NCBI RefSeq assembly: GCF_015277515.1
Contig: NZ_CP063767.1
Coordinates: forward strand, 124,001-188,000
Reading direction: 5' to 3'
DNA length: 64,000 nucleotides
Source: Thermophilibacter immobilis
GTDB lineage: Bacteria; Actinomycetota; Coriobacteriia; Coriobacteriales; Atopobiaceae
The stretch's first letter is position 1; the number at the start of each line of letters is the position of its first letter. Positions 22,937-60,465 of this stretch are shown piece by piece. The notes below the pieces were generated by a model. It made no database searches and had not been told where the DNA came from. It worked only from the letters and a program-made list of their open reading frames with translations. Both the position numbers and the translations under genes were made by a program.

Positions 22937-27633
<4,697 letters not shown>

Positions 27634-27743
27634 TCATTTACGTGTTCGAGTCTCGTATGCGACCCTCGCGAGGGGGATCGAGGTCACGCTGTGCGGCCCT
27701 GAGGGCACGGTCGAGCGCCGTCCCCAGGCAAGAATGCCCCTTG

Positions 27744-27863
27744 TTGGTCAGCGACCATGGCAGGGGAGGCACACCCGGTCCCATTCCGAACCCGGAAGTT
27801 AAGCCCCCTAGCGCCGATGGTACTGCGGTGTAGTCCGTGGGAGAGCAGGACGTCGCTGACCAA
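27744..27863 (+). rRNA. rrf: 5S ribosomal RNA, copy 1
   Basis: About 120 nt; CACCCGGTCCCATTCCGAAC and GGAAGTTAAGC are the 5S landmarks. The terminal helix is extended by flanking sequence into a perfect 22-bp inverted repeat (ATGCCCCTTGTTGGTC arm), probably the maturation stem. Confidence 0.95.
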
Positions 27864-27882
27864 CAAGGGGCATTTTCCCGTC

Positions 27883-27919
27883 GAGGGGGCGGGGGAGCCG
27901 GCGGCTCCCCCGCCCCCTC
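27883..27919 (+). terminator. Terminator of rRNA operon 1
   Basis: 17-bp perfect GC-rich stem (27883-27899 with 27903-27919) closed by GGC, followed by a second small hairpin CCCTCCCGCATGTCGGGAGGG. No long U tract. Confidence 0.75.
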
Positions 27920-28283
27920 CCGCATGTCGGGAGGGAATCCAAAGCTGCACGTGGGTAAACCTATGCCAGCGGTTGTTTTGGTGCCTTAAGCGGTTTCAGT
28001 TGTGTAGGAACCGTGTGCCCGCCGATTCCCGCCGGGCGGCGGGTGCCGAGTGCGTATAGTAATTCCCCGCGCAGCAACGAGGCCAGAGCCCGCGACCTGC
28101 GCGGCGAACCTTGAAAACCGGATACTGCGATCGAAAGATCGACGAAGACAGACTAGCGAGATTCGAATGATGCCGGGCGAGAGCCCGGCTCGTCAATTCA
28201 TTTTTCAGCGAATCCGAGATCAGCGGGATCTTAGGACAGAGACGGACCAAGCTTTGAATCGCACCGGCCCTAGGCCGGTCCAA

Positions 28284-32984
<4,701 letters not shown>

Positions 32985-33094
32985 TCATTTACGTGTTCGA
33001 GTCTCGTATGCGACCCTCGCGAGGGGGATCGAGGTCACGCTGTGCGGCCCTGAGGGCACGGTCGAGCGCCGTCCCCAGGCAAGAATGCCCCTTG

Positions 33095-33214
33095 TTGGTC
33101 AGCGACCATGGCAGGGGAGGCACACCCGGTCCCATTCCGAACCCGGAAGTTAAGCCCCCTAGCGCCGATGGTACTGCGGTGTAGTCCGTGGGAGAGCAGG
33201 ACGTCGCTGACCAA
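33095..33214 (+). rRNA. rrf: 5S ribosomal RNA, copy 2
   Basis: Same sequence and flanking maturation stem as copy 1. Confidence 0.95.
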
Positions 33215-42100: not shown

Positions 42101-42972
42101 GCGGCTCCCGGTGGCGCGCGATCGCTCGTGATGCGACCCTCATCGTGGTCGGCTCCCTCATCTTTGCCGTGGGTGTGGACAGCTTCGAGATTCCCAATGG
42201 CCTTGCCGCTGGCGGCGTGACGGGTCTGGCTACGGTCTTTCATGCCATGGCCGGTACTGCGGGGTTCTACCTTCCCGTGGGCCTGCAGACCATCGTCATG
42301 AACGCTTTGCTTATGACGGTGGTCATTCGCTCGGGTGATAGGGGATACATTGCGCGGACCCTGGGCGGCATCATTGCCTGCGGCGTGTTGACCGACGTTC
42401 TTGCCCCGATTGTTCCTGTGCTCACGGGTGAGCGCGACCTGCTCCTGTGCGCCCTATGGGGTGGCGTCATCACGGGAGTGGGACTGGGTCTCGTGTTTCG
42501 CACGGGGGGAAACACCGGAGGGACCGACATCATCGCGCAGGTCATCGTGCGCAGATTTGGCATGCCCATGGGTACGGCCGTCATTATCGTGGACGGTATC
42601 ATAATCGCCTTCTCGGCTACGGTCTTCTCGGTTGAGCAGGCGCTCTATGCAGCCGTGGCGATGTTCATCTGCGGCAAGGTCATTGACGCCGTGGTGGACG
42701 GTCCGCGCACCGAGCGTGCCGCCTACATCATCTCGGTCGAGCACGACAAGATCGCCAACGCGATCCTCTACACCCTCAACCGGGGCTGTACCGAGCTTCA
42801 GGCGCGTGGCGTCTGGAGTGGCAGCTCCCGACCGGTTCTTTTCTGCGTGCTGGGGCGCTCGGAGAGTACGCGCCTCAAAAAGATCGTCGCCGCATGCGAC
42901 CCTGAGGCCATCGTGATTATCTCTGAGGTCCACGAGGTCTTTGGCGAGGGATTCAAGCAGATCGAGGGCTAG
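42097..42972 (+). CDS. YitT-family membrane protein (DUF161 plus DUF2179)
   Basis: 291 residues, GTG start overlapping the prfB stop by four bases. Five to six membrane spans in the first 190 residues with the family motifs FEIPNGLAAGGVTGLA and GGNTGGTDIIAQ; the soluble C-terminal DUF2179 domain follows (AAYIISVEHDKIANAIL...GCTELQARGVWSG...IISEVHEVFGEGF). Function in the family is unknown. Its TAG stop overlaps the stop of the convergent DeoR gene in a shared CTAG. Confidence 0.9.
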   Translation: MSGSRWRAIARDATLIVVGSLIFAVGVDSFEIPNGLAAGGVTGLATVFHAMAGTAGFYLPVGLQTIVMNALLMTVVIRSGDRGYIARTLGGIIACGVLTDVLAPIVPVLTGERDLLLCALWGGVITGVGLGLVFRTGGNTGGTDIIAQVIVRRFGMPMGTAVIIVDGIIIAFSATVFSVEQALYAAVAMFICGKVIDAVVDGPRTERAAYIISVEHDKIANAILYTLNRGCTELQARGVWSGSSRPVLFCVLGRSESTRLKKIVAACDPEAIVIISEVHEVFGEGFKQIEG

Positions 42973-43766
42973 CGCCCGCTGCTGCCGCTGTCTGTCTCGA
43001 GCGTGGGATCGACGCGTATGACCTCGCCTAGTCCGTAATTCTTGAGCGTGGAGACCTGTGCGTCCGTTGCCCCTGTGTCCGTGATGAGCAGGTCAACCTC
43101 GTCGGTCGAGCCAAACTGGAAGCTCGAGGTGAGTCCAATCTTGGAGGAGTCGGCGACGATGACGTGCAGCTTGGAGCGCTCGAGCATGAGCGCGTTGATG
43201 GCGGGCTCCGGGGCTGTGGCCGAGGTGAGCCCGTAGTTCGCCGACAGACCGGTGAGGCCGAGGAAGCACTTGGTTGCCGTGACGCGCTTTATGTAGGCAA
43301 GGGCAATCTCGCCGGTCATGGAGGCGCGCGGTGGGCGAATCTCGCCGCCCGTGAGCAGGATGGCAAGGTTGGGGCACTCATCAAGAAGCAGCGCCTTGCC
43401 ATTGTTGGTGATGACGGTGACGTCTTGCGCCGTGATGAAGTCGATGATGCCCAGGGCGGTCGAGCTTGCGTTGAGAAAGATGCAGTCCCCGTCCTCGACG
43501 TGCTGGGCGGCCTCGTGGGCGATGGCTCGATTGGCGCGAATCTGGCGCGAGCCGGAGGGTCGACCAAGGGGGTTCAGGAGCGTGGCAGTCCCATACTGGC
43601 GCGAGACCACCTGGCGCGTCTCGAGGTAGTCGAGGTCACGGCGGATGGTAAGGGCCGACACCTCAAAATGCTCGGCGAGATCCGAGACGCTCACCTGGCC
43701 CTGGCTCTCGAGCAGAGCGATAATGGCATCCCGACGCGAGGCAACGAAGGCCTTGCTCCTCTTCAT
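42969..43766 (-). CDS. DeoR-family transcriptional regulator
   Basis: 265 residues. N-terminal winged helix (SRRDAIIALLESQGQVSVSDLAEHFEVSALTIRRDLDYLE) and C-terminal DeoR sensor domain (VEDGDCIFLNASSTALGIIDFI, VITNNGKALLLDE, LTGGEIRPPRASMTGEIAL, VADSSKIG), which resembles sugar-phosphate isomerases and binds phosphorylated sugars. ATG 43766 chosen (GGGAGC ribosome site, family-typical start). Divergent from the PTS operon across 448 bp, so it is the likely repressor of that operon, with a phosphorylated intermediate as inducer. Confidence 0.92.
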   Translation of the reverse strand: MKRSKAFVASRRDAIIALLESQGQVSVSDLAEHFEVSALTIRRDLDYLETRQVVSRQYGTATLLNPLGRPSGSRQIRANRAIAHEAAQHVEDGDCIFLNASSTALGIIDFITAQDVTVITNNGKALLLDECPNLAILLTGGEIRPPRASMTGEIALAYIKRVTATKCFLGLTGLSANYGLTSATAPEPAINALMLERSKLHVIVADSSKIGLTSSFQFGSTDEVDLLITDTGATDAQVSTLKNYGLGEVIRVDPTLETDSGSSGR

Positions 43767-44214
43767 GGACAGCTCCCTGAAAAATACGTGGCTTGATGAA
43801 GCTGGATGGTTACAGAGCATTATACGAATGCTATCCAAAAAATCAACCATAACCAATTATAAAATATAAGATAAAAGCTCATATAAATAGAATAAAAAGT
43901 AAATAAAAATACTTAGGCCTACTTTTTCGTATAGAGCATTCATAAACAGTATAAATCTCATAATAATGAATAGTATATAGATGTTAAACACTCAAAACTA
44001 GATTTATAAAGTAAATTAAATGATATACCTTTTAGGGATGAAAAAGGACCACTGACAGAACTTCTGAAAAAATGAAGAAGTTAATGTGAAAAAATCGTTG
44101 CCATGGCGTTCATTTAGTGACACACTTACGAACGTTGGATTTGGAAAATTCAGCAGCCGAGCGACAAAGAATCGCTCCTGGTGAACCACGCATGGGAAGT
44201 TGAGGTGAGTACGC
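43767..44214. promoter_or_regulatory. AT-rich divergent regulatory region of the PTS/aldolase operon
   Basis: 448 bp without a gene, strikingly AT-rich from about 43800 to 44100. AGCATT (43816-43821) and AATGCT (43827-43832) form an inverted repeat around ATACG; AGAGCATT occurs again at 43932-43939 beside another CGTATA. These are candidate DeoR operators, and the A/T tracts suggest curved DNA. Exact promoters are not assignable by eye. Confidence 0.55.
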
Positions 44215-44670
44215 ATGCTGAGTGATCTTCTCGACAAGAGCCTCGTTCGGCTTAATGTCGAGGCCACCGACTGGCAAGACGCTATCAGAAAGTCTGCCCA
44301 GCCGTTGGTGGAAAACGGTAAGGTCACCCCGGGCTACGTCGACGACATTATCAAGGGCGTCCTCGATCTTGGGCCCTACATCGTCATCACGGAGCACGTG
44401 GCCCTTCCGCACGCGCGTCCCGAAAGCGGCGCGCTTGAGTCTGCCGTGGGGATTGTCACGCTTAGGGACCCCGTCGAGTTTGGCAGCGCCGATAACGACC
44501 CCGTCAAGTTCCTGTTTCCTCTGAGTGCCAAAGATAACGACAGCCATCTGAGCGCCCTACAGTCCCTCGTTGAGCTCTTGAGCGATCCGGACTTTTTTGC
44601 CCAGCTGGAAAACGCCAGAACGCCACAGGACGTCGTGGACCTTGTCCACACAAAGGAAGGGAGATCGTAA
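44215..44670 (+). CDS. PTS EIIA component, ascorbate/mannitol (type 2) family
   Basis: 151 residues, cytoplasmic. Accepts phosphate from HPr on His66 (EHVALPHARPE) and passes it to IIB. The PTS_EIIA_2 pattern is complete: W-x-AI near the N terminus, TPGYVDDIIKGVLDLGPYIVI, and AVGIVTLRDPVEFGS. TTGAGGTGAG ribosome site. First gene of the operon; its TAA overlaps the IIB start by one base. Confidence 0.92.
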   Translation: MLSDLLDKSLVRLNVEATDWQDAIRKSAQPLVENGKVTPGYVDDIIKGVLDLGPYIVITEHVALPHARPESGALESAVGIVTLRDPVEFGSADNDPVKFLFPLSAKDNDSHLSALQSLVELLSDPDFFAQLENARTPQDVVDLVHTKEGRS

Positions 44671-44969
44671 TGTCTCAGAAAAAGTACCAGGCACTAGTTT
44701 GCTGCCGCGCCGGAATGGGCTCGTCTATGATGCTCAAGATCAAGTGTGACCAGGTCATCAATGAGGAGAAGCTCCCCATCGAGACCGAGCACGGTAACCT
44801 CGACTCACTTATCGGCTTTACCGGTGACCTTGTTATCACCATGTCCGACCTAACCAATGAGCTCAGCGCCGACCCCCGCGTTCCCTCCGCCATCGGTATC
44901 ACCAATATCGTCGACAAGAAGGAGATCAAGGAGAAGCTCACTGCGTGGCTCGCCGAGCATGCCGCATAG
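44670..44969 (+). CDS. PTS EIIB component, ascorbate (UlaB/SgaB-like) family
   Basis: 99 residues, cytoplasmic. The phospho-Cys loop is Cys12 in CCRAGMGSSMML, matching the C-x-x-G-x-G-S-S pattern of ascorbate-type IIB. Carries phosphate from IIA to the incoming substrate in IIC. Confidence 0.92.
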   Translation: MSQKKYQALVCCRAGMGSSMMLKIKCDQVINEEKLPIETEHGNLDSLIGFTGDLVITMSDLTNELSADPRVPSAIGITNIVDKKEIKEKLTAWLAEHAA

Positions 44970-45044
44970 CCCTCTCGCGTTTTTTGCCTTGCCTCTGACT
45001 GAGTAGGTCAAACGAAACTATTGGTACTCTTGGAAGGAAAACGT

Positions 45045-46346
45045 ATGCTTGATGCCCTCCTCATGCAGATTAGGGATACGGCCGTCATCATGGGCGTCAT
45101 TGCCCTTGTCGGCCTCCTGCTGCAGAAGAAGTCGGCCGTCGATGTCTTCTCCGGTACGGTGAAGACCATCATCGGCTTCATGATCTTCAACATCGGATCT
45201 GATGCCATGTCGGCGCAGATTACCATCTTCTCTGACATGTTCACCAGGGCGTTTAGCGTCCATGGCGTTGTGACCCAGGTCGAGGTCGCCACGGCGCTCG
45301 CCCTGAACACCTATGGTACCGAGGTCGCGCTCGTCATGGTACTCGGCTTCGTCATGAACCTCGTGTTCGCCAAGGTGACGCCCTTCAAGGCCGTCTTCCT
45401 GACGGGTCAGCACTTCCTGTATTTTGCTTGCGTCCTAGCGCTCGTCTTTATCGCACTCGGTGCTCCGACCTTTGTGACGGTCATTCTCGGTGGCATTATC
45501 CTGGGCTTCTGTGGAGCCTCTCTGCCCACGCTCTGCCAGCCGTTCGTGAACAAGCTCGTGGGCAACGACAGCATCGCCCTTGGCCACTTCAACTGCATCG
45601 GCTACGCCTTCTCCGGATACGTGGGCAAGCTCTTCGCCAAGAAGAACGACGCCGATGAGGGCAAGGAGGAGAAGGAGCTTCCCGAGTTCTTCAAGCTCTT
45701 CAAGGACTTCGTCTTCTCGGTGGCCCTGTTCATGATCGTGCTCTTCTACATCGTGACTATCGCCTGCTTCGTCACGGGCCAGTTTGACACCGAGCTTGCC
45801 TCCGGCAAGGCCTTTACCAGCTACTTCGGAAACGACGTGTGGTGGATTTGGCCCTTCCTCGCAGGCCTCAAGTTCGCTGCAGGCATGTCTGTCCTGATCT
45901 ACGGCGTTCGCCAGTTCATCGCCGAGATCACTGCCGCGTTCGTGGGCATCTCCGAGAAGCTCATCCCCGACGCTCGCCCTGCCGTTGACTGCCCGGCCAT
46001 CTTCCCGTTTGCGCCGAACGCCGTCATCATTGGCTTCATTGGCTCCTTCCTGGGTGGCCTCGTGGCCATGGCCTTCATGGTTGCCCTCCACTCCGAGACC
46101 ATCATGATCCCGGCTGCCGGCATCTGCTTCTTCTCGGGCGGCACCTGCGGCGTGTGCGGCTACGCCTACGGCGGATGGCGTGGAGCTTTTCTTGGCTCCT
46201 TCATCGTGGGCATCTTCCTGTGCGCAGGCCCGCTCGTGCTCTATCCGGCCTTCGCCAACCTCGGCATCGCCGAGGCCTCCTTCCCGAACGTCGACTACAA
46301 CATCATCGGCTCGATCATCTACGGGATTGGTCACATCTTTGCATAG
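45045..46346 (+). CDS. PTS EIIC component, ascorbate (UlaA/SgaT) family
   Basis: 433 residues, about 10-11 membrane spans. Substrate-translocating part of the PTS. UlaA-like features: N-terminal GVIALVGLLLQKKSAVDVFSGTVKTIIGFMIFNIG, ALNTYGTEVALVMVLGF, the FVTVILGGIILG segment, VRQFIAEITAAFVGISEKLIP, and HSETIMIPAAG. A short charged cytoplasmic loop (KKNDADEGKEEKELPEFF) follows the YVGKLF segment. ATG 45045 after GGAAGG is chosen over the in-frame TTG at 45021. The UlaA family also transports substrates other than ascorbate, so the substrate is not settled by homology. Confidence 0.92.
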   Translation: MLDALLMQIRDTAVIMGVIALVGLLLQKKSAVDVFSGTVKTIIGFMIFNIGSDAMSAQITIFSDMFTRAFSVHGVVTQVEVATALALNTYGTEVALVMVLGFVMNLVFAKVTPFKAVFLTGQHFLYFACVLALVFIALGAPTFVTVILGGIILGFCGASLPTLCQPFVNKLVGNDSIALGHFNCIGYAFSGYVGKLFAKKNDADEGKEEKELPEFFKLFKDFVFSVALFMIVLFYIVTIACFVTGQFDTELASGKAFTSYFGNDVWWIWPFLAGLKFAAGMSVLIYGVRQFIAEITAAFVGISEKLIPDARPAVDCPAIFPFAPNAVIIGFIGSFLGGLVAMAFMVALHSETIMIPAAGICFFSGGTCGVCGYAYGGWRGAFLGSFIVGIFLCAGPLVLYPAFANLGIAEASFPNVDYNIIGSIIYGIGHIFA

Positions 46347-46393
46347 TTCCCAGCCTGGGAACGCTCTGCCTACTCAGCTCTAAGGTCTTTGGC

Positions 46394-46427
46394 CGAGGGC
46401 GCTCGTGGAAGCCCACGGGCGCCCTCG
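46394..46427 (+). other. Strong intercistronic hairpin between PTS IIC and aldolase genes
   Basis: 15-bp stem with one T-G wobble (46394-46408 with 46413-46427), loop AAGC, no U tract. A smaller palindrome GTTCCCAG-C-CTGGGAAC sits right at the IIC stop (46346-46362). Likely sets mRNA stability or partial termination between transport and enzyme genes. Inference. Confidence 0.55.
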
Positions 46428-46452
46428 CCTCGTAAAGTGAAAGGAGACACCC

Positions 46453-47238
46453 ATGCTCGAAGCCGCTCGCATTGCCGACGCCCATCTCGGTGGCCTGCTC
46501 GTGCAGGTGATTGACTCCGCACCCGTCGTGATGATGGCACGTAACGCCGGCATCGACTTCCTGCTGTTCGACAACGAGCACGGAGACGTGGACGACGCGC
46601 GCCTGAGCTCTCTCATGATGCTGGGAAACGCCGTGGGCCTTCCCTCGATCGTACGCGCGCCGCAGCTTGCCCGCGCCGACGTCTCGCGGCTTCTCGACCG
46701 AGGAGCGACGGGCGTCATGGTCCCCATGATCGAGACGATCGGGCAGGCGCGACAGCTGGCATCGTGGGCCAAGTATCCGCCCCTCGGGCGTCGAAGCTAC
46801 TCGGGCGGTGCCCATACGGGATACGGCCCCTCGGGAGGCCATGCGCTCAACATGAAGCACGCCAACGCGCAGACGTTGGCAATTGTCCAGATAGAAACCG
46901 TCGCGGGCGTTGAGAGCGTCGAGGAGATCCTTGCGGTGGACGGCATCGATGCCGCCATTATTGGTCCCTGCGACCTGGCAATCTCAATGGGACGCCCGGA
47001 TGAGGTCGGATGCGACGAGGAGCTTCGGCTCATCGATCGCGTCAGTGATGCCTGCAAGGCCGCGCACAAGGGCTTTGGCATCATTGGCGGAAACGAACTC
47101 ATCGCCCGCTACGCCCCGGACATCAATCTCATGGTCTCTGCCCTTGATGCGCACATCCTACGCGCCGCCCTCTCCGCTGCCGCGTCAGACTACGACCGAC
47201 TGCGCGCCCAGGCGCAGGGTCGGCCACACGCGAGGTAG
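46453..47238 (+). CDS. HpcH/HpaI-family class II pyruvate aldolase
   Basis: 261 residues. Metal-dependent retro-aldol cleavage of 2-keto-3-deoxy sugar acids or related compounds to pyruvate and an aldehyde. Family motifs: LFDNEHGDVDD (normally DxEH), GATGVMVPMIET, PPLGRRSYSGG, and the metal ligands Glu in VQIET and Asp in IIGPCDLAISMG. AAAGGAGAC ribosome site. Second functional block of the PTS operon. Precise substrate unknown. Confidence 0.9.
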   Translation: MLEAARIADAHLGGLLVQVIDSAPVVMMARNAGIDFLLFDNEHGDVDDARLSSLMMLGNAVGLPSIVRAPQLARADVSRLLDRGATGVMVPMIETIGQARQLASWAKYPPLGRRSYSGGAHTGYGPSGGHALNMKHANAQTLAIVQIETVAGVESVEEILAVDGIDAAIIGPCDLAISMGRPDEVGCDEELRLIDRVSDACKAAHKGFGIIGGNELIARYAPDINLMVSALDAHILRAALSAAASDYDRLRAQAQGRPHAR

Positions 47239-47241
47239 CAC

Positions 47242-47916
47242 ATGGCAAAGAAGAAAAAGGTCGCGAGCGCGACCAAGAAAGACGCGTCTACTGCCGTTGA
47301 GCAGACGGAGGAGCGCCTCGGGGCTGCGGGAACTGCCAAGAAGGTATCAGAGAACGTCCTCGGCGACATGCTGGGCGTCGGGGGGAAGAAGAAGGAGCCG
47401 CTCGAGCGACCCGACGACAAGATCGTCCTTGCCGTCGAGGAGGACCGCACGCGGCTCGTCGTGCAGGGCGCGGGTCTGCTCCTCGCGGTGCTTTTTGCGC
47501 TTGTCGCCACCCTTGTTTTTTGGGGCGCGGCCAACCTGACCGGTAATGTGGTCTTTCTGCTGCTGGTCATCGTTTTTCTCACCGTCGCCTGGTTTGTGTC
47601 GAGGGCCATGGGGAAGCGCTTCAACCGGCTTTTCTCGCACACCAACGTCATCGACTTCGGCGAGCGCCACATCTTCGTCTACGAGAGGGCAGACCCCAAG
47701 AAGGCCCTCGTCATCCCCTACAAGGACATAAAGAACTATCGGCTCATCCGCCAGGGCAGGGCCATGCGCCTGCTGCTCTCGGGCGCGTGGGTCACGCATC
47801 CATCAGGCTACCAGCTCGTTGACATCAATCGACCGTTTAAGGCGGACACGCTCGACGAGCTCTCTCACCAGGTGGCGCAGATCATGCGCGAGCATCGCGT
47901 GAGCGCGCGCGTATAG
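47242..47916 (+). CDS. Hypothetical two-span membrane protein
   Basis: 224 residues, starting 3 bases after the aldolase stop, so translationally linked to it. Lys/Ala-rich cytoplasmic N terminus (1-70), two spans (about 74-96 and 101-120), then a compact soluble domain (TNVIDFGERHIFVYERA, VIPYKDIKNYRLIRQGRAMRLLLS, YQLVDINRPF) reminiscent of bacterial PH-like domains. No catalytic motif. Its role inside a sugar-catabolic operon is unclear. Confidence 0.8.
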   Translation: MAKKKKVASATKKDASTAVEQTEERLGAAGTAKKVSENVLGDMLGVGGKKKEPLERPDDKIVLAVEEDRTRLVVQGAGLLLAVLFALVATLVFWGAANLTGNVVFLLLVIVFLTVAWFVSRAMGKRFNRLFSHTNVIDFGERHIFVYERADPKKALVIPYKDIKNYRLIRQGRAMRLLLSGAWVTHPSGYQLVDINRPFKADTLDELSHQVAQIMREHRVSARV

Positions 47917-47974
47917 GGCACGAGTGCAGTATTTCGAGTCCCCACGAGGGGCCAGCGAACAAAGGAGCATCACC

Positions 47975-48583
47975 ATGGCAACCGACAAAGAGCAAGTCAC
48001 CGAGTTTTTGGATATCGCCAAGAAGTCTCTTGACGAGTACGTGTCCGGCATCGACTTTGACGCCCTGAGCGCGGCCAAGGAACTTATCCTTGCTGCCGAG
48101 AAAGCGGGTGGACGTCTGCACGTGACGGGCATTGGCAAGCCAGGGCACGTCTCGGGCTACGCCGCGTCGCTCTTCTCGTCCACCGGCACGCCGACCTATG
48201 AGCTGCACGGCACCGAGTGCGTGCACGGCTCGGCAGGGCAGGTCCGTCCGGGCGACGTGGTGATCGCGATCTCCAACTCAGGAGAGACCGCAGAGCTCAA
48301 GGCCACGGTCAGCTGCCTCAAGGGCAACGGTGCCAAGATCATCGCCCTCACGGGCAACCCCCAGAGCTGGCTTGCCCGGCAGGGTGACGTGGCGCTCATC
48401 GCGGGCGTCGCGCAGGAGGGCGACTCCATGAACAAACCTCCGCGTGCCTCCATCCTGGCCGAGATCATCGAGCTCCAGTGTCTCTCCATCCTGCTTCAGA
48501 ACGAGTTCGGCCTCGATCCCAAGCAGTACGTCAAGTGGCACCCGGGCGGGGCCCTCGGCGCCTCCATTCGCGACGCCAAGTAG
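47975..48583 (+). CDS. SIS-domain sugar-phosphate isomerase (KpsF/GutQ-like, no CBS domains)
   Basis: 202 residues. One SIS domain: GRLHVTGIGKPGHVSGYAAS, HGTECVHGSAGQVRPGDVVIAISNSGETAEL, ALTGNPQSWLARQGDV, and the C-terminal KWHPGGALGAS that matches the HPGGxLG end of the arabinose-5-P isomerase SIS module. The paired CBS domains of KpsF/GutQ are missing. Likely isomerises a phosphorylated ketose or aldose in the pathway. ATG 47975 after AAAGGAGC; an upstream in-frame start has no ribosome site. Confidence 0.88.
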   Translation: MATDKEQVTEFLDIAKKSLDEYVSGIDFDALSAAKELILAAEKAGGRLHVTGIGKPGHVSGYAASLFSSTGTPTYELHGTECVHGSAGQVRPGDVVIAISNSGETAELKATVSCLKGNGAKIIALTGNPQSWLARQGDVALIAGVAQEGDSMNKPPRASILAEIIELQCLSILLQNEFGLDPKQYVKWHPGGALGASIRDAK

Positions 48584-48632
48584 CTCGTCCACCACGCTAT
48601 CACACACTCCAGAGAAGAGAAGGAATCCACGC

Positions 48633-49529
48633 ATGTCCAAGTTCCAGGGCGTCATCGTCCCCATGGTCACCCCCTTCACGCGGGATGACACCCAGACCAT
48701 TAGCTACGAGGCTGCGGAGCTCCTGGTCGAGAAGCTCATCTCCGAGGGGGCCAGCGGCATCTTCACCTTTGGGTCCAACGGTGAATTCCACGTTTGCACC
48801 CCCGACGAGAAGATCTCGTTCTCCCAGTTTGTGATCGAGAAGGTCGCTGGCCGCGTGCCCGTCTACGTGGGCACCGGCGCGTGCTCGACCCACGAGGCCG
48901 TCGAGCTGTCCAAGCGTGCCGAGGCCATAGGGGCCGACGCGCTCTCCGTCATAAACCCCTACTTCCTGGGCATCTCCGATGACCAGCTCAAGGGGTACTT
49001 CATCACGGTGGCCGAAAGCGTGAAGGTCCCCGTTATGCTCTATAACATCCCCAAGGCCACGGGCATGAATGTCTCGCCCGAGGTCGTCCGCGAGGTTGCC
49101 CAGGTCGACAACGTGAGGGGCGTCAAGGACTCCTCCGGCAATATGGATAACTTCAAGGGCTATCTTGACGCGGTGAGGGGCACGGACGTTGACGTTCTGG
49201 TGGGTTCCGATGGCAAGATCTCGGAGGCACATGCGCTCGGAGCATCGGGTGCCGTTGCCGGCACCGCGAACCTCATTACGAAAGTCGTGGCAGATCTTTG
49301 GAATGCTCTTGAGTCGGGCAGCGAACGGGAGGCTGAGCGCCTGCAGGCCGAGGTCGAGCCGATCCGCGACGTGCTGCACCTGGGGTCCACGCCCCAGACC
49401 CTCAAGCGCGCCCTTGAGCTTGCCGGATATCCCGTGGGCCCTGCTCGCTTCCCCGTCGCCGAGGTCGCTGCGGGAGTGGACGATAAAATACGTGCGATGC
49501 TCGACCATTACCGCATCGCTCACCACTAA
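48633..49529 (+). CDS. DapA/NanA-family class I aldolase (dihydrodipicolinate synthase superfamily)
   Basis: 298 residues, TIM barrel. Schiff-base Lys165 (GVKDSSGN) and Tyr137 (MLYNIP) are present and fall at the same residue numbers as in E. coli N-acetylneuraminate lyase. The carboxylate loop is GSNGEF, not GTTGE of true DapA or GSTGE of NanA. With PTS, SIS and other aldolase genes around it, a 2-keto-3-deoxy-sugar-acid aldolase role is more likely than lysine synthesis. AAGGAA ribosome site before ATG 48633. Confidence 0.85.
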   Translation: MSKFQGVIVPMVTPFTRDDTQTISYEAAELLVEKLISEGASGIFTFGSNGEFHVCTPDEKISFSQFVIEKVAGRVPVYVGTGACSTHEAVELSKRAEAIGADALSVINPYFLGISDDQLKGYFITVAESVKVPVMLYNIPKATGMNVSPEVVREVAQVDNVRGVKDSSGNMDNFKGYLDAVRGTDVDVLVGSDGKISEAHALGASGAVAGTANLITKVVADLWNALESGSEREAERLQAEVEPIRDVLHLGSTPQTLKRALELAGYPVGPARFPVAEVAAGVDDKIRAMLDHYRIAHH

Positions 49530-49543
49530 GACTGCGTGAATCC

Positions 49544-49570
49544 GAACGCCTCCGTATAGGGGGCGTTCTT
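49544..49570 (+). terminator. Hairpin between the two class I aldolase genes
   Basis: GAACGCCTCC (49544-49553) pairs with GGGGGCGTTC (49559-49568) through one wobble, followed by TTGT. Terminator or attenuator inside the operon. Confidence 0.5.
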
Positions 49571-49598
49571 GTACTGAGAAAAAAAGGAGACAGCTCTC

Positions 49599-50255
49599 AT
49601 GATTCTTCAGAAGGCCGAGATTACCCAGGCGCTCTACGACACAGCCGCATTTGCCGTGGTGCGCGTCCCCACCATCGAGAGGGGGTGCGAGATTGCCGAG
49701 GGGCTGGTCAAAGGTGGCGTCCGCGCTATGGAGGTCAGCTACACCCTGCCCAACGCCGGCGAGGTGATCGCAGGCATCAAGGAGCGCTTTGGCGATGATA
49801 TGCTCGTGGGCGCCGGAACGGTCATGGAGGCCACAACGGCGCGCCTTGCCATCCTGAGCGGAGCTCAGTTCATCGTGGCCAACTGCCTCTCGGATGAGGT
49901 GGCGCGCATCTGCAACCTCTACCAGATTCCGTACGCGCCCGGCTGCACCACAACGACAGAGGCCAACCATGCGCTCGCCCTCGGTGCCGCCTACATCAAG
50001 TGCTTCCCCATCTCCAACGTGTACGGTCCGTCCCTCGTGAGCCTTTTCAAGACCCCGACGCCCTGGATGCCCCTCATGGCCTCCGGTGGCATCAGCCTGG
50101 AGAACCTCAGTATCTGGATCGGTGCGGGCGTCGACTGCTGCGGCATGGGGAGCCTTCTCACCAAGGGTACCTCCGAGGAGATCGCCGCCAACGCGGCGCA
50201 GGTCAGAAGAATCATCGATGAAACTCGCGCGGGAGCATCCTCTGCTGCTCGATGA
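49599..50255 (+). CDS. KDPG/KHG-type aldolase (Eda family)
   Basis: 218 residues, TIM barrel. Schiff-base Lys134 in AAYIKCFPIS, base Glu in RAMEVSYTLPNA, GAGTVMEATTA and MASGGISLENLSIWIGAGV. Cleaves 2-keto-3-deoxy-6-phosphogluconate or a close relative to pyruvate and glyceraldehyde-3-P, or 4-hydroxy-2-oxoglutarate. No 6-phosphogluconate dehydratase (Edd) gene is near, so the substrate probably does not come through Entner-Doudoroff. AAAAAGGAGAC ribosome site. Confidence 0.9.
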   Translation: MILQKAEITQALYDTAAFAVVRVPTIERGCEIAEGLVKGGVRAMEVSYTLPNAGEVIAGIKERFGDDMLVGAGTVMEATTARLAILSGAQFIVANCLSDEVARICNLYQIPYAPGCTTTTEANHALALGAAYIKCFPISNVYGPSLVSLFKTPTPWMPLMASGGISLENLSIWIGAGVDCCGMGSLLTKGTSEEIAANAAQVRRIIDETRAGASSAAR

Positions 50256-50343
50256 AATGCCGCCGTTTACGGTCTTATGAAGGCAGCGGGAACCTCGGAT
50301 GTGTATCGTAGAGATGTCTGGCAGCTTGTAGGGAAGGGGCACC

Positions 50344-51027
50344 ATGAAGTTCTTCATCGACACCGCGGACCTCGGCGAGATCCGGGAGGCCCTCTCGTGG
50401 GGGTGCCTGGACGGCGTCACCACCAACCCGTCGCTGTACGCCCGCACGGGCGGCAGGCTCGACGACTTCGAGGCCCACATGGTCAAGATCGCCCAGCTCT
50501 GCGAGGGGCTGCCCGTCTCGGCGGAGTCCCAGGCCAAGGACGTCGAGGGCATGGTCGCCGACGGCCGCAGGCTGTCGGCCCTGGCCCCCAACATCGTGGT
50601 CAAGCTCCCCGTCTGCGAGGCCGGCCTGGCGGCGACCCACCGGCTGGCCTCCGAGGGCGTGCGCGTCAACGTGACGCTCGTCTTCTCGGCCCCGCAGGCG
50701 CTCCTGGCCGCCAGCGCCGGCGCCCGCTACGTGAGCCCGTTCGTGGGCCGCTTCGACGACGTCGGCGAGGACGGCGTCGACCGGCTCGCCGACGTGGTCG
50801 CCTGCATCGGCAACTACGACTGGGGGGGCAGGAACGTGGACGGCCGGGTGGAGGTCATCACCGCCTCCGTTCGCACGCCCAGCCACGTGACGCAGGCGGC
50901 CCTCCTGGGCGCCGACATCGCCACCGTGCCCCTCGCCGCGCTCAGGAGGTGCGTGCGCCACCCCCTGACCGACCAGGGCATGGCCTCCTTCGACGCCGAC
51001 TGGGTCAAGGTCGTGGCGGCGCAGTAG
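50344..51027 (+). CDS. Short transaldolase (TalC/fructose-6-P aldolase subfamily)
   Basis: 227 residues. MKFFIDTADLGEIREAL start, DGVTTNPSL, Schiff-base Lys87 (VVKLPVC), NVTLVFSAPQALLAASAGARYVSPFVGRFDD. Moves a dihydroxyacetone unit between sugar phosphates or cleaves fructose-6-P; the two activities cannot be separated safely by eye. Followed by split transketolase genes, which favours transaldolase. Third-position GC is very high. Confidence 0.9.
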   Translation: MKFFIDTADLGEIREALSWGCLDGVTTNPSLYARTGGRLDDFEAHMVKIAQLCEGLPVSAESQAKDVEGMVADGRRLSALAPNIVVKLPVCEAGLAATHRLASEGVRVNVTLVFSAPQALLAASAGARYVSPFVGRFDDVGEDGVDRLADVVACIGNYDWGGRNVDGRVEVITASVRTPSHVTQAALLGADIATVPLAALRRCVRHPLTDQGMASFDADWVKVVAAQ

Positions 51028-51116
51028 CGCCGGCCAGCATCTTGCGCTCTTCCCCGTTGCGGGGAGAGGGGCGGGACAAAAGACGTAAGAGATAAAAGCA
51101 AAAAAGGAGACAGCCC

Positions 51117-51941
51117 ATGCGCGACGAGGAGCTCGAGAGGGTCGCCAACGAGGTCCGCAAGGGGATCGTGACTGCGGTGCACGCAGCCAAGTCCGGGCAC
51201 CCCGGCGGGTCGCTCGGCGCGGCCGACATGTTGACCTATCTGTACTTCGAGGAAATGAACATCGACCCGGACAGGCCCGGCTGGCCCGACCGCGACCGCT
51301 TCGTCCTGTCCAAGGGTCATTGCGCTCCCGGCCTGTACGCGACGCTCGCCGCGCGTGGGTTCTTCCCCGCCTCCGACCTCGAGGGTCTGCGCCACATAGG
51401 CAGCCACCTCCAGGGCCACCCCAACATGCGCGACACCCCCGGCGTGGACATGACCACGGGGTCTCTTGGCCAGGGGGTCTCGGCGGCCGTGGGCATGGCG
51501 CTTGCGGCCAAGCACTGGGGAGAGGACCATCGCGTCTACGCGATGCTCGGCGACGGCGAGTGCGAGGAGGGCCAGGTCTGGGAGGCCTCCATGTTCGCCG
51601 GCAACCAGAAGCTCGACAACCTCTGCCTGATCGTGGACCACAACGGCCTGCAGATCGACGGCACGATCGAGGAGGTCAACTCGGCGATGCCCCTGGCCGA
51701 AAAGTTCCGCGCCTTCAAGTTCCACGTGGTGGAGCTCGCGGACGGACATGACATGTCCCAAATCCGTGCGGCCCTGACGAAGGCCCGCGCTACGAAGGGC
51801 GCGCCCACGTGCATCGTGGCCGAGACCGTCAAGGGCAGGGGAGTCTCCTTCATGGAAAACCAGGTGGGCTGGCACGGCAAGGCACCCAATGACAAGCAGT
51901 ACGCCCAGGCCATGGCCGAGCTCGACAAGGAGGCCCAGTAA
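51117..51941 (+). CDS. Transketolase N-terminal subunit
   Basis: 274 residues, the TPP pyrophosphate-binding half of a split transketolase. SGHPGGSLGAADMLTYLYF, FVLSKGHCAPGLYATLA, GSLGQGVSAAVGMALA, and MLGDGECEEGQVWEA...VDHNGLQIDG for Mg-TPP. TAA overlaps the start of the C-terminal subunit gene (TAATG). Exchanges two-carbon units in the non-oxidative pentose phosphate pathway. Confidence 0.95.
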   Translation: MRDEELERVANEVRKGIVTAVHAAKSGHPGGSLGAADMLTYLYFEEMNIDPDRPGWPDRDRFVLSKGHCAPGLYATLAARGFFPASDLEGLRHIGSHLQGHPNMRDTPGVDMTTGSLGQGVSAAVGMALAAKHWGEDHRVYAMLGDGECEEGQVWEASMFAGNQKLDNLCLIVDHNGLQIDGTIEEVNSAMPLAEKFRAFKFHVVELADGHDMSQIRAALTKARATKGAPTCIVAETVKGRGVSFMENQVGWHGKAPNDKQYAQAMAELDKEAQ

Positions 51942-52885
51942 TGGACGGCGTGAAGAAGATAGCCACCCGGCAGAGCTACGGCGAGGCCCTCGTCGCGTTG
52001 GGCGCGGAGCACGACGACTTCGTGGTCTTCGACGCGGACCTCGCGGCGGCCACCCAGACCGGCAAGTTCAGGGACGCCTACCCCGACCGCTTCTTCGACG
52101 CGGGCATCGCCGAGGCCAACATGATGGGCATGGCCGCCGGCGTCGCCGCCGCGGGCCACGTGGCCTTTGCGAGCACCTTCGCCATGTTCGCCGCCGGCCG
52201 CGCCTTCGAGCAGGTCAGAAACTCCATCGGCTACCCGCACCTCAACGTCAAGATCGGCGCCACCCACGCTGGCATTTCGGTTGGCGAGGACGGCGCCACC
52301 CACCAGTGCAACGAGGACATCGCCCTCATGCGTACGATCCCGGGCATGACGGTCATCTGCCCGTGCGACGACGTGGAGGCGCGCGCTGCCGTGCGGGCCG
52401 CCTATGAGACTGACGGGCCCGTCTACCTGAGGCTTGGCCGGCTCGCAGTGCCCGTGGTCAACGACCGGCCCGACTACGAGTTCCACATGGGCAAGGCCTT
52501 CACCCAGCGCGGGGGCTCCGACGTCACGCTCATCGCCACGGGGCTCATGGTTCAGGCCGCCCTCGGGGCCGCCGAGGCGCTCGAAGCGAAGGGCATCTCC
52601 GCCGAGGTCCTCGACATCCATACCATCAAGCCGCTCGACGTCGACGCCATCGTGGCGAGCGCCGAGAAGACCGGTCGGGTCGTGACCTGCGAGGAGCACT
52701 CCGTCATAGGGGGCCTGGGCGGCGCGGTGTGCGAGGCCCTGTCCGAGCGCCTCCCGACGCCCGTGCGCAGGATCGGCGTGCACGACGTCTTCGGCCACTC
52801 CGGTCCCGCCGTCGACCTGCTCCACGAGTTCGGCCTCGACGCCGAGGGCGTCGCCCGCGAGGTCGAGGACTTTCTCGGCCGCTAG
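51941..52885 (+). CDS. Transketolase C-terminal subunit
   Basis: 314 residues, the pyrimidine-binding half plus C-terminal domain. FDADLAAATQTGKF, RFFDAGIAEANMMGMAAGVAAAGHVAFASTFAMF with the catalytic Glu in GIAEAN, and GATHAGISVGEDGATHQCNEDIALMR. Forms a heteromer with the preceding product. Last gene of the operon; a terminator follows. Confidence 0.95.
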   Translation: MDGVKKIATRQSYGEALVALGAEHDDFVVFDADLAAATQTGKFRDAYPDRFFDAGIAEANMMGMAAGVAAAGHVAFASTFAMFAAGRAFEQVRNSIGYPHLNVKIGATHAGISVGEDGATHQCNEDIALMRTIPGMTVICPCDDVEARAAVRAAYETDGPVYLRLGRLAVPVVNDRPDYEFHMGKAFTQRGGSDVTLIATGLMVQAALGAAEALEAKGISAEVLDIHTIKPLDVDAIVASAEKTGRVVTCEEHSVIGGLGGAVCEALSERLPTPVRRIGVHDVFGHSGPAVDLLHEFGLDAEGVAREVEDFLGR

Positions 52886-60089: not shown

Positions 60090-60465
60090 GGGGGTGACTG
60101 GTTTCGACAGGGTGGGTCTGAGATGGGCAGCAGGCCGTGGTCTCCTCGCCACGCTAAACAGGGGTACCGTCAAATTGAATTGACGACAACAACGCTTTTG
60201 AGCCTCAGCTGGCTCTCGCTGCTTAGTTTTAACTAACTAACCAGCGCGTCAAACCGGAGGTTGCTCCCGCCTCCGGGGCGGCGTCATCCTAGGGAGATGC
60301 ACGAGCGGACGTGGCTGGTATGCCGCTCGCCAAGATCGAACCAGCTGGGACGTCGCGCGCGGGTCACCGGGTGCGCGTCGTCTAAGATCTAACCGGTAAC
60401 TGAGCCTGGAGACACCTGTCAGGGATTTGCTTTGGACCGGAGTTCGATTCTCCGCACCTCCACCA
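60090..60465 (+). ncRNA. ssrA: Transfer-messenger RNA (tmRNA)
   Basis: 376 nt, one-piece tmRNA. The 5' GGGGGTGACTGGTTTCGACAG and the 3' GTTCGATTCTCCGCACCTCC-ACCA form the tRNA-like end; the acceptor arm pairs GGGGGTG with CACCTCC, and CCA is encoded. The tag frame 60182-60226 reads DDNNAFEPQLALAA then TAG; ALAA is the usual protease-recognised end. Rescues stalled ribosomes together with SmpB encoded 1.7 kb upstream. Confidence 0.96.

Follow-up and report, generated by a model that had tools for sequence, protein, structure and literature searches.

A conserved, mobile PTS-linked aldolase cassette of Thermophilibacter immobilis and its candidate role in 2-keto-3-deoxy sugar acid catabolism

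Which compound is consumed by an operon that joins a sugar-importing phosphotransferase system (PTS) to a sugar-phosphate isomerase and three different kinds of pyruvate aldolase? The question is raised by positions 44215-52885 of a 64,000-nucleotide stretch, hereafter the window, of the Thermophilibacter immobilis genome (2,163,714 bases, one contig; the window is positions 124,001 to 188,000 of NZ_CP063767.1). A preliminary description made from the sequence of the window had called the cluster a PTS-linked catabolic operon for a phospho-sugar or sugar acid with pyruvate-type aldolases, and a sugar-acid operon of this kind is upheld here. We find that its core is a real, conserved and mobile module, uncharacterised as far as we have seen. 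We propose that this cassette may catabolise a C8 2-keto-3-deoxy sugar acid, most likely 3-deoxy-D-manno-octulosonate (KDO), a reading that we regard as not quite an even call.

Gene content and conservation of the cassette

Eleven genes, all on the + strand and separated by -1 to 106 nt, make up the cluster. The PTS consists of an ascorbate/fructose-type IIA (44215..44670; PF00359, 130 bits; His66), a IIB (44670..44969; PF02302, 44.2 bits; Cys12) and a UlaA-like IIC (45045..46346; PF03611, 348.7 bits; NF006919, 402.9 against a cut-off of 380; NF009553, 449.3 against 423). It is followed by an HpcH/HpaI-family pyruvate aldolase (HpcH; 46453..47238; PF03328, 89.7 bits, cut-off 25), a two-span membrane protein of unassigned function with no Pfam family above cut-off (47242..47916), a single-domain SIS sugar-phosphate isomerase (SIS; 47975..48583), a DapA/NanA-family class I aldolase (DapA; 48633..49529; PF00701, 220.2 bits; Tyr137 and Lys165) and a class I aldolase of the Eda type (2-keto-3-deoxy-6-phosphogluconate/2-keto-4-hydroxyglutarate aldolase family; Eda; 49599..50255; PF01081, 107.1 bits, cut-off 27.8; Lys134). 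The last genes encode a TalC-type transaldolase (Tal; 50344..51027; PF00923, 171.2 bits; Lys87) and the N-terminal (51117..51941; PF00456, 220 bits) and C-terminal (51941..52885; PF02779 and PF02780 above cut-off) halves of a transketolase (Tkt). A DeoR/GlpR-type regulator (42969..43766, - strand; PF00455 and PF08220 above cut-off) is divergent. A script confirmed IIA His66, IIB Cys12, DapA Tyr137 and Lys165, Eda Lys134 and Tal Lys87, and together with the family scans it upholds the gene list of the preliminary description, with its single strand, divergent regulator and named residues. The isomerase, described as lacking CBS, has 202 residues that match SIS families alone in Pfam. Among the proteins of 42969-52885 none scored above cut-off with the dehydratase, kinase, dehydrogenase or UlaD-G models, so that the reported absence of Edd, kinase, dehydratase and dehydrogenase from the cluster also stands.

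DapA-like matches (E <= 1e-40) were found in 39 of 140 genomes of the family, Atopobiaceae, and 32 family stretches, two of them from the window genome, were taken for reading. At 19 of the family loci, including the window, we found the core DeoR - IIA-IIB-IIC - (HpcH) - membrane protein - SIS - DapA - Eda; the membrane protein is encoded at all 19, HpcH at 9, Tal at 12 and the N-terminal half of Tkt at 13. Occurrence is patchy in the family, the window's own genus included. With the DapA alignment, at least 80 loci were found in genome contigs. Among the matches listed, the Atopobiaceae contigs come from Atopobium, Olsenella and Tractidigestivibacter, and SIS and DapA accompany an ascorbate-type IIA-IIB-IIC, in most cases together with Eda, in Dielma fastidiosa, Saccharibacillus and others; Enterococcus innesii has no Eda alongside, and an Erysipelotrichaceae contig has no Eda seen on it. 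A search with SIS (E <= 1e-45) gave 45 matching places, in 19 of the 294 genomes covered around Dielma and 22 of the 395 around E. innesii.

We tallied 63 loci, namely 43 found through SIS that have a full-length SIS, the 19 of the family and that of Saccharibacillus. The last 20 were found through DapA and hence contain it by construction; the loci are mutually related, and the counts are not independent events. Genes were counted within 8 kb, at bit-score thresholds set for this analysis, under which the DapA-like genes of loci L215 and L216 fall (96-126 bits). Outside the tally are G643, the plasmid records and L221, whose SIS is truncated (125 bits). PTS and pyruvate aldolase accompany SIS at 40 of the 43 SIS-found loci, where DapA is found at 38, Eda at 32 and HpcH at 6. 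Across all 63, an ascorbate-type PTS stands with DapA and Eda at 33 loci, with HpcH, DapA and Eda at 13, with DapA only at 3 and with HpcH only at 2; a mannose-type PTS stands with DapA and Eda at 5 and with DapA only at 3. One locus has both PTS types with DapA and Eda, and 3 have a kinase and no PTS. DapA is on the strand of SIS at all 58 loci that have it and lies within 150 nt of SIS at 49 of them. Since the core is syntenic at the 19 family loci and recurs in Bacillota, the gene set is not a chance assembly. At one Marinilactibacillus locus (L089) the SIS frame has a single internal TAA in an otherwise full cluster, by decay or sequencing error.

Plasmids carry near-minimal versions of the cassette as well. 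A tblastn search with SIS found eight plasmid records, seven from Enterococcus and one from C. difficile, and gene content was taken for three of them from a gene table that is incomplete. Enterococcus gilvus pCR1A has IIA-IIB-IIC-SIS-DapA-Eda-BglG, and in C. difficile NZ_CP149720 the order is BglG-IIB-IIC-SIS-DapA-Eda, the table showing no IIA as a gene of its own; BglG-type regulators at chromosomal loci include a IIA-like part. E. faecium pDMEA1 carries IIA-IIB-SIS-DapA-Eda-BglG; the table shows no IIC in the gap of ~520 bases before SIS, and another IIC lies ~2.4 kb past the regulator on the opposite strand. Between the outermost genes of each of these three sets, nothing reads as a kinase, dehydratase or dehydrogenase; upstream of IIA there is a zinc alcohol dehydrogenase on the E. 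faecium plasmid, and other enzymes lie upstream in E. gilvus.

The isomerase, the aldolases and the order of their steps

The substrate of the isomerase can be approached through loci that have a kinase. At L217, SIS stands with RbsD (Pfam) and a kinase above the ribokinase cut-off (331.7 against 299.65 bits), and with no aldolase; an ATP-binding cassette (ABC) ATPase, a permease, a binding protein and a LacI-type regulator, assigned by eye or by weak match, make the locus read as an rbs-type operon. L216 combines a Peripla_BP_6-type ABC system, three DapA-like genes, two short-chain dehydrogenases, a zinc dehydrogenase, SIS, RbsD/FucU and a ribokinase-like kinase under the same cut-off (286.8), and L215 is laid out like it. 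A kinase and RbsD beside SIS point to an aldose phosphate as its substrate, an aldopentose 5-phosphate being the simplest case. In a FastTree tree these loci appear interspersed among the PTS loci of a single SIS clade, and SIS probably catalyses the same reaction in both settings. G284, from which L217 comes, encodes an RpiB-family protein, and for this reason the pentose at L217 is probably not ribose. On balance we think it likely that the substrate of SIS is a pentose 5-phosphate. A pentose 5-phosphate is also a more likely second cleavage product than the triose named in the preliminary description.

The same loci bear on the order of the steps. Since SIS at L217 has kinase and RbsD but no aldolase, and since the plasmids carry bare PTS-SIS-DapA-Eda sets, retro-aldol cleavage probably precedes isomerisation. 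Isomerisation followed by cleavage had been suggested; both activities are retained here, with their order probably reversed. Because the plasmid sets have no kinase, dehydratase or dehydrogenase inside them, we take the imported compound to be a 2-keto-3-deoxy acid already.

The AlphaFold2 model of SIS (mean predicted local distance difference test score, pLDDT, 93.5), a monomer like that of DapA, fits KpsF-like isomerases best: its top fold matches are 2xhz, 3etn, 5uqi and 3fxa, with Z 25.7 for KdsD (2xhz) and 24.1 for c3406 (5uqi), and after these four rows Z is at most 21.7. The best solved chain is 5uqi, c3406 solved with arabinose 5-phosphate (A5P) according to its title. In the tree, SIS forms its own clade next to the A5P isomerases. 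The window protein has all of Lys55, His84, Glu104, Glu148 and His189, which we take to be the catalytic residues of SIS isomerases. In a 71-row alignment, which takes in three E. coli references and five weak or truncated homologues, Lys55 and His84 are present in 71 rows each, Glu148 in 70 (one gap), His189 in 69 (two gaps) and Glu104 in 62. A Gram-positive A5P isomerase, from Clostridium tetani, is cited among the references of PMC11301363. A role for SIS in KDO synthesis was rejected, KdsB being above cut-off in none of eight genomes (weaker matches in six), in a search whose control was above cut-off in 4 of 14. Ribose-5-phosphate isomerase was rejected as well, with the RpiB family present in seven of the eight, including the window genome and G284; G775 gave no RpiB-family match in this search, which did not extend to RpiA.

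For DapA, the fold search does not indicate a substrate: the model (pLDDT 96.1; best match Z 42.7) matches the whole family about equally, and the protein shares no more than 31% identity with any of the 50 solved entries listed. Its scores fall below the cut-offs for N-acetylneuraminate lyase (TIGR00683, 101.3 against 382 bits; NF003164, 132.8 against 281) and dihydrodipicolinate synthase (DHDPS; TIGR00674, 189.8 against 206.15), and it touches KdgD dehydratase models below cut-off (109.5 against 278 and 85.4 against 374 bits), as family members do. Lysine synthesis was ruled out by the DHDPS cut-off, by Lys141 standing where Arg138 of DHDPS is expected (its place and role being our assumption), and by three other DHDPS-family genes in the window genome. 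The Schiff-base Lys and C-terminal Ser of Eda align with those of E. coli Eda, and the score is below the TIGR01182 cut-off (136.3 against 156.05 bits). In HpcH the presumably catalytic His43, Arg68, Glu148 and Asp174 align with identical residues of GarL.

A candidate route for KDO and its alternatives

In the proposed route, IIABC would import KDO and phosphorylate it to KDO 8-phosphate, and a pyruvate aldolase (DapA-type and/or Eda-type, or HpcH) would cleave this to pyruvate and D-arabinose 5-phosphate. SIS would then form ribulose 5-phosphate, which would enter the pentose phosphate pathway via transketolase and transaldolase. In such a PTS version the phosphate would be gained on import and the aldolase would yield an aldose phosphate; a C8 2-keto-3-deoxy acid less pyruvate leaves C5. 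Within this class KDO was chosen because of its natural abundance and because SIS is nearest to A5P isomerases. KDO is part of nearly all Gram-negative lipopolysaccharide (LPS) and of plant rhamnogalacturonan II. That the imported acid is KDO itself is a tentative choice, about which we have some doubt.

Several observations weigh against this proposal. No gene of the cassette names KDO, and no KDO hydrolase was seen beside it, although no genome-wide search was made. SIS scores 118 bits with the KpsF model, under the cut-off of 203.7, and the stem of its clade is long. The clade has NKPPRAS in place of the LAPTSS of KdsD and GutQ and the LAPSCS of c3406, with Asn153, Pro156 and Arg157 invariant in all 36 aligned members; its aldose phosphate may consequently differ, and the two extra basic residues could point to a different or more acidic substrate. 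Glu104 is exchanged in 9 of the 71 rows, and L217, the locus that argues most strongly for a pentose, has Gln there. At L044, a twentieth locus of the family, the PTS, membrane protein, DapA and Eda are present with no SIS in 20 kb. A single cleavage leaves the usual co-occurrence of DapA and Eda unexplained, and the D-2-hydroxyacid dehydrogenase of mannose-PTS clusters (8 of 63 loci) would be superfluous.

The NKPPRAS stretch, by setting the clade apart from known A5P isomerases, and the membership of DapA in NanA's family would both suit the same route acting on another acid, either C9 (like 2-keto-3-deoxynonulosonate, KDN) or another 2-keto-3-deoxy acid, with SIS isomerising the resulting hexose or tetrose phosphate (e.g. 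mannose 6-phosphate to fructose 6-phosphate). However, the ribokinase-like kinase and RbsD partners of the clade indicate an aldopentose and the fold ranking favours KpsF-like isomerases, and we consider another acid unlikely. Less probable still is an arrangement in which an imported aldose or ketose phosphate (e.g. from D-arabinose or a pentitol) goes to SIS first and the aldolases, under shared control, act on a different substrate. L217, with SIS and no aldolase, would fit this, and GAT-type (galactitol-type) permeases often carry polyols; but pyruvate aldolase and PTS lie within 8 kb of SIS at nearly all SIS-found loci (40 of 43, as above) and in the three plasmid sets read, and no polyol dehydrogenase was found in the window cluster.

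Two further alternatives would modify the KDO proposal rather than replace it. The usual pairing of DapA and Eda (52 of 63 loci) might reflect two successive or stereochemically different steps, for instance on C4 epimers of one acid, with HpcH doing both; HpaI-type aldolases have relaxed C4 stereocontrol, and our guess is that DapA and Eda are paired for opposite C4 stereochemistry. HpcH is alone with PTS and SIS at two loci, L207 and L214; the genomes concerned (G402 and G161) gave no DapA match and, for Eda, no match in one and one weak match (34% identity) in the other. Because of these two genomes, and because DapA and Eda without HpcH are common, HpcH and the DapA-Eda pair look interchangeable. 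The three aldolases of the preliminary description are thus all present, whereas three routes are not required (HpcH alone in 2 genomes; DapA and Eda without HpcH, beside an ascorbate-type PTS and no other, at 33 of the 63). Against two steps, DapA stands without Eda within 8 kb at 6 of the 63 loci, though G384 holds an Eda elsewhere (61% identity), and we regard this refinement as rather doubtful. More evenly balanced is the question of whether two units have been joined, with IIABC-membrane protein-SIS-DapA-Eda (with or without HpcH) as the system and Tal and Tkt as housekeeping genes following it, which is compatible with the KDO proposal. Tal and Tkt are not alongside the core in some relatives (e.g. 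L042 and L045), an 88-nt gap separates Eda from Tal, and the split Tkt is probably the only transketolase of the window genome, since the one other match to its C-terminal half lies in a 600-aa frame that by size would be a 1-deoxy-D-xylulose 5-phosphate synthase. On the other side, split Tkt genes near the cassette recur in some Bacillota (L202, L205 and L208). Tal has Glu and Phe where E. coli FsaA has Gln59 and Tyr131; we take the former pair to mark transaldolases and the latter fructose-6-phosphate aldolases, so that Tal is likely a transaldolase, and fructose-6-phosphate aldolase activity was rejected on this ground. The TAL_FSA family has four members in the window genome. The suggestion that Tal and Tkt recycle the remainder of the substrate survives in our proposal as its entry to central metabolism, but the genes are optional neighbours (both Tkt halves at 16 of 63 loci, Tal at 12).

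A related gene set points to a possible sister branch of the proposed KDO pathway. The window genome has a second DapA-Eda pair (G000:C1:2015259-2021804; L038:9259-15804), with DapA 66% identical, in a cluster with a LacI-type regulator, a mannose-type IIB-IIC-IID, a D-2-hydroxyacid dehydrogenase and IIA, and with no SIS alongside. In Bacillota, mannose-PTS sets occur with SIS and a regulator carrying a PucR-type helix-turn-helix, and the contig of the truncated SIS at L221 also has a glycerate kinase. Cleavage to hydroxypyruvate by this branch would fit these genes. The 2-hydroxyacid dehydrogenase and, once, the glycerate kinase suggest a 3-hydroxy analogue of KDO as its substrate. The fullest version of our proposal, in which a PTS pathway devoted to KDO moves horizontally among Gram-positive bacteria of the gut and oral cavity and has a sister branch for such an analogue (e.g. 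D-glycero-D-talo-oct-2-ulosonate, Ko, to hydroxypyruvate and glycerate), is speculative and on present evidence improbable. No pathway for KDO consumption by anaerobes was described in the open-access titles and abstract openings covered, with subscription journals mostly outside that scope. If the KDO proposal is right, a cassette of six or seven genes would turn a sugar of LPS or pectin into pyruvate and pentose phosphate by a defined route. Bacteria that show no sign of making KDO would then have a use for their single-domain proteins of the A5P-isomerase type, as organisms lacking LPS would for such enzymes, and three non-homologous aldolase families would become candidates for 2-keto-3-deoxy-octonate phosphates.

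Surroundings of the cassette and comparison with known systems

Close homologues of the DeoR regulator (>300 bits) lie within 8 kb at 17 of the 19 family SIS loci; of the other two, L059 lacks one and L041 starts at the edge of its contig. The sequence TTACGAAC at 44126..44133 (+ strand), 5' of IIA, is a candidate operator. Its pattern TTAYGAAC has a single match in the window, with 0.70 expected by chance, which is not significant there; of 17 regulator-IIA stretches from the family, 10 contain the 9-mer CGTTCGTAA or its complement. A promoter scan predicted 3 promoters against a mean of 1.8 in shuffles, and this result was set aside. Homologues of the membrane protein (>=20 bits) occur at all 19 family SIS loci and at one of the 44 remaining tallied loci (L202). 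Elsewhere in the window are two complete 16S-23S-5S rRNA sets in tandem (22939-33212) and a tmRNA (60090-60465; Rfam, 145.8 bits). The tag peptide given for the latter by ARAGORN looks misplaced; 60188-60223 reads NNAFEPQLALAA and then a stop, like the usual tag.

The cluster shares IIA, IIB and a UlaA-like IIC with the Ula system, which has UlaD-G where the window has pyruvate aldolases and a KpsF-like SIS. Ascorbate use was ruled out because UlaD-G scored below cut-off throughout the cluster, in line with the preliminary description, which had set the operon apart from Ula-type utilisation. The window genome has two further EIIC-GAT permeases; 10 open reading frames selected from their surroundings encode, among others, a GntR regulator, class II aldolases of AraD/FucA-like and FBA-like type, and alcohol dehydrogenases. 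UlaF itself belongs to the AraD family, and for that reason a UlaF-like protein elsewhere in the genome is conceivable.

NanA and YagE have the DapA fold and equivalents of Tyr137 and Lys165 in common with the window DapA, which is below the nanA and dapA cut-offs and 31% identical to YagE, a 2-keto-3-deoxygluconate aldolase. Eda shares class I chemistry, the Schiff-base Lys and the C-terminal Ser with the Entner-Doudoroff enzyme, but it has no accompanying Edd or kinase; the Entner-Doudoroff route was rejected because the cluster lacks Edd. KdsD, GutQ and c3406 have the same SIS fold, and Lys55, His84, Glu148 and His189 of the window SIS align in all three, Glu104 in KdsD and c3406 and not in GutQ; c3406 is also single-domain. 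They differ from the window SIS in having LAPTSS or LAPSCS for NKPPRAS and in lying outside its long-stemmed clade, and, unlike them, window-type SIS genes adjoin aldolases and a PTS in genomes without KdsB above cut-off (0 of 8). The c3406 gene set of E. coli CFT073 (L070:4591-9820) resembles the cassette in its PTS permease and single-domain KpsF/GutQ isomerase, but it has MalY/PatB and another PTS EIIC, with no DapA, Eda or HpcH annotated. With this difference in gene content it was rejected as the same system. A gene resembling phosphoglycerate dehydrogenase adjoins the CFT073 isomerase, and such a gene near an isomerase of the c3406 kind recurs in mannose-PTS clusters.

The closest biochemical counterpart of the proposed reaction is KDO aldolase, for which we found no sequence and which cleaves KDO to D-arabinose and pyruvate (PMC4412817). 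The cleavage is the same in both cases; KDO aldolase acts on the free acid, whereas in the cassette the substrate would be the 8-phosphate formed on import by the PTS.

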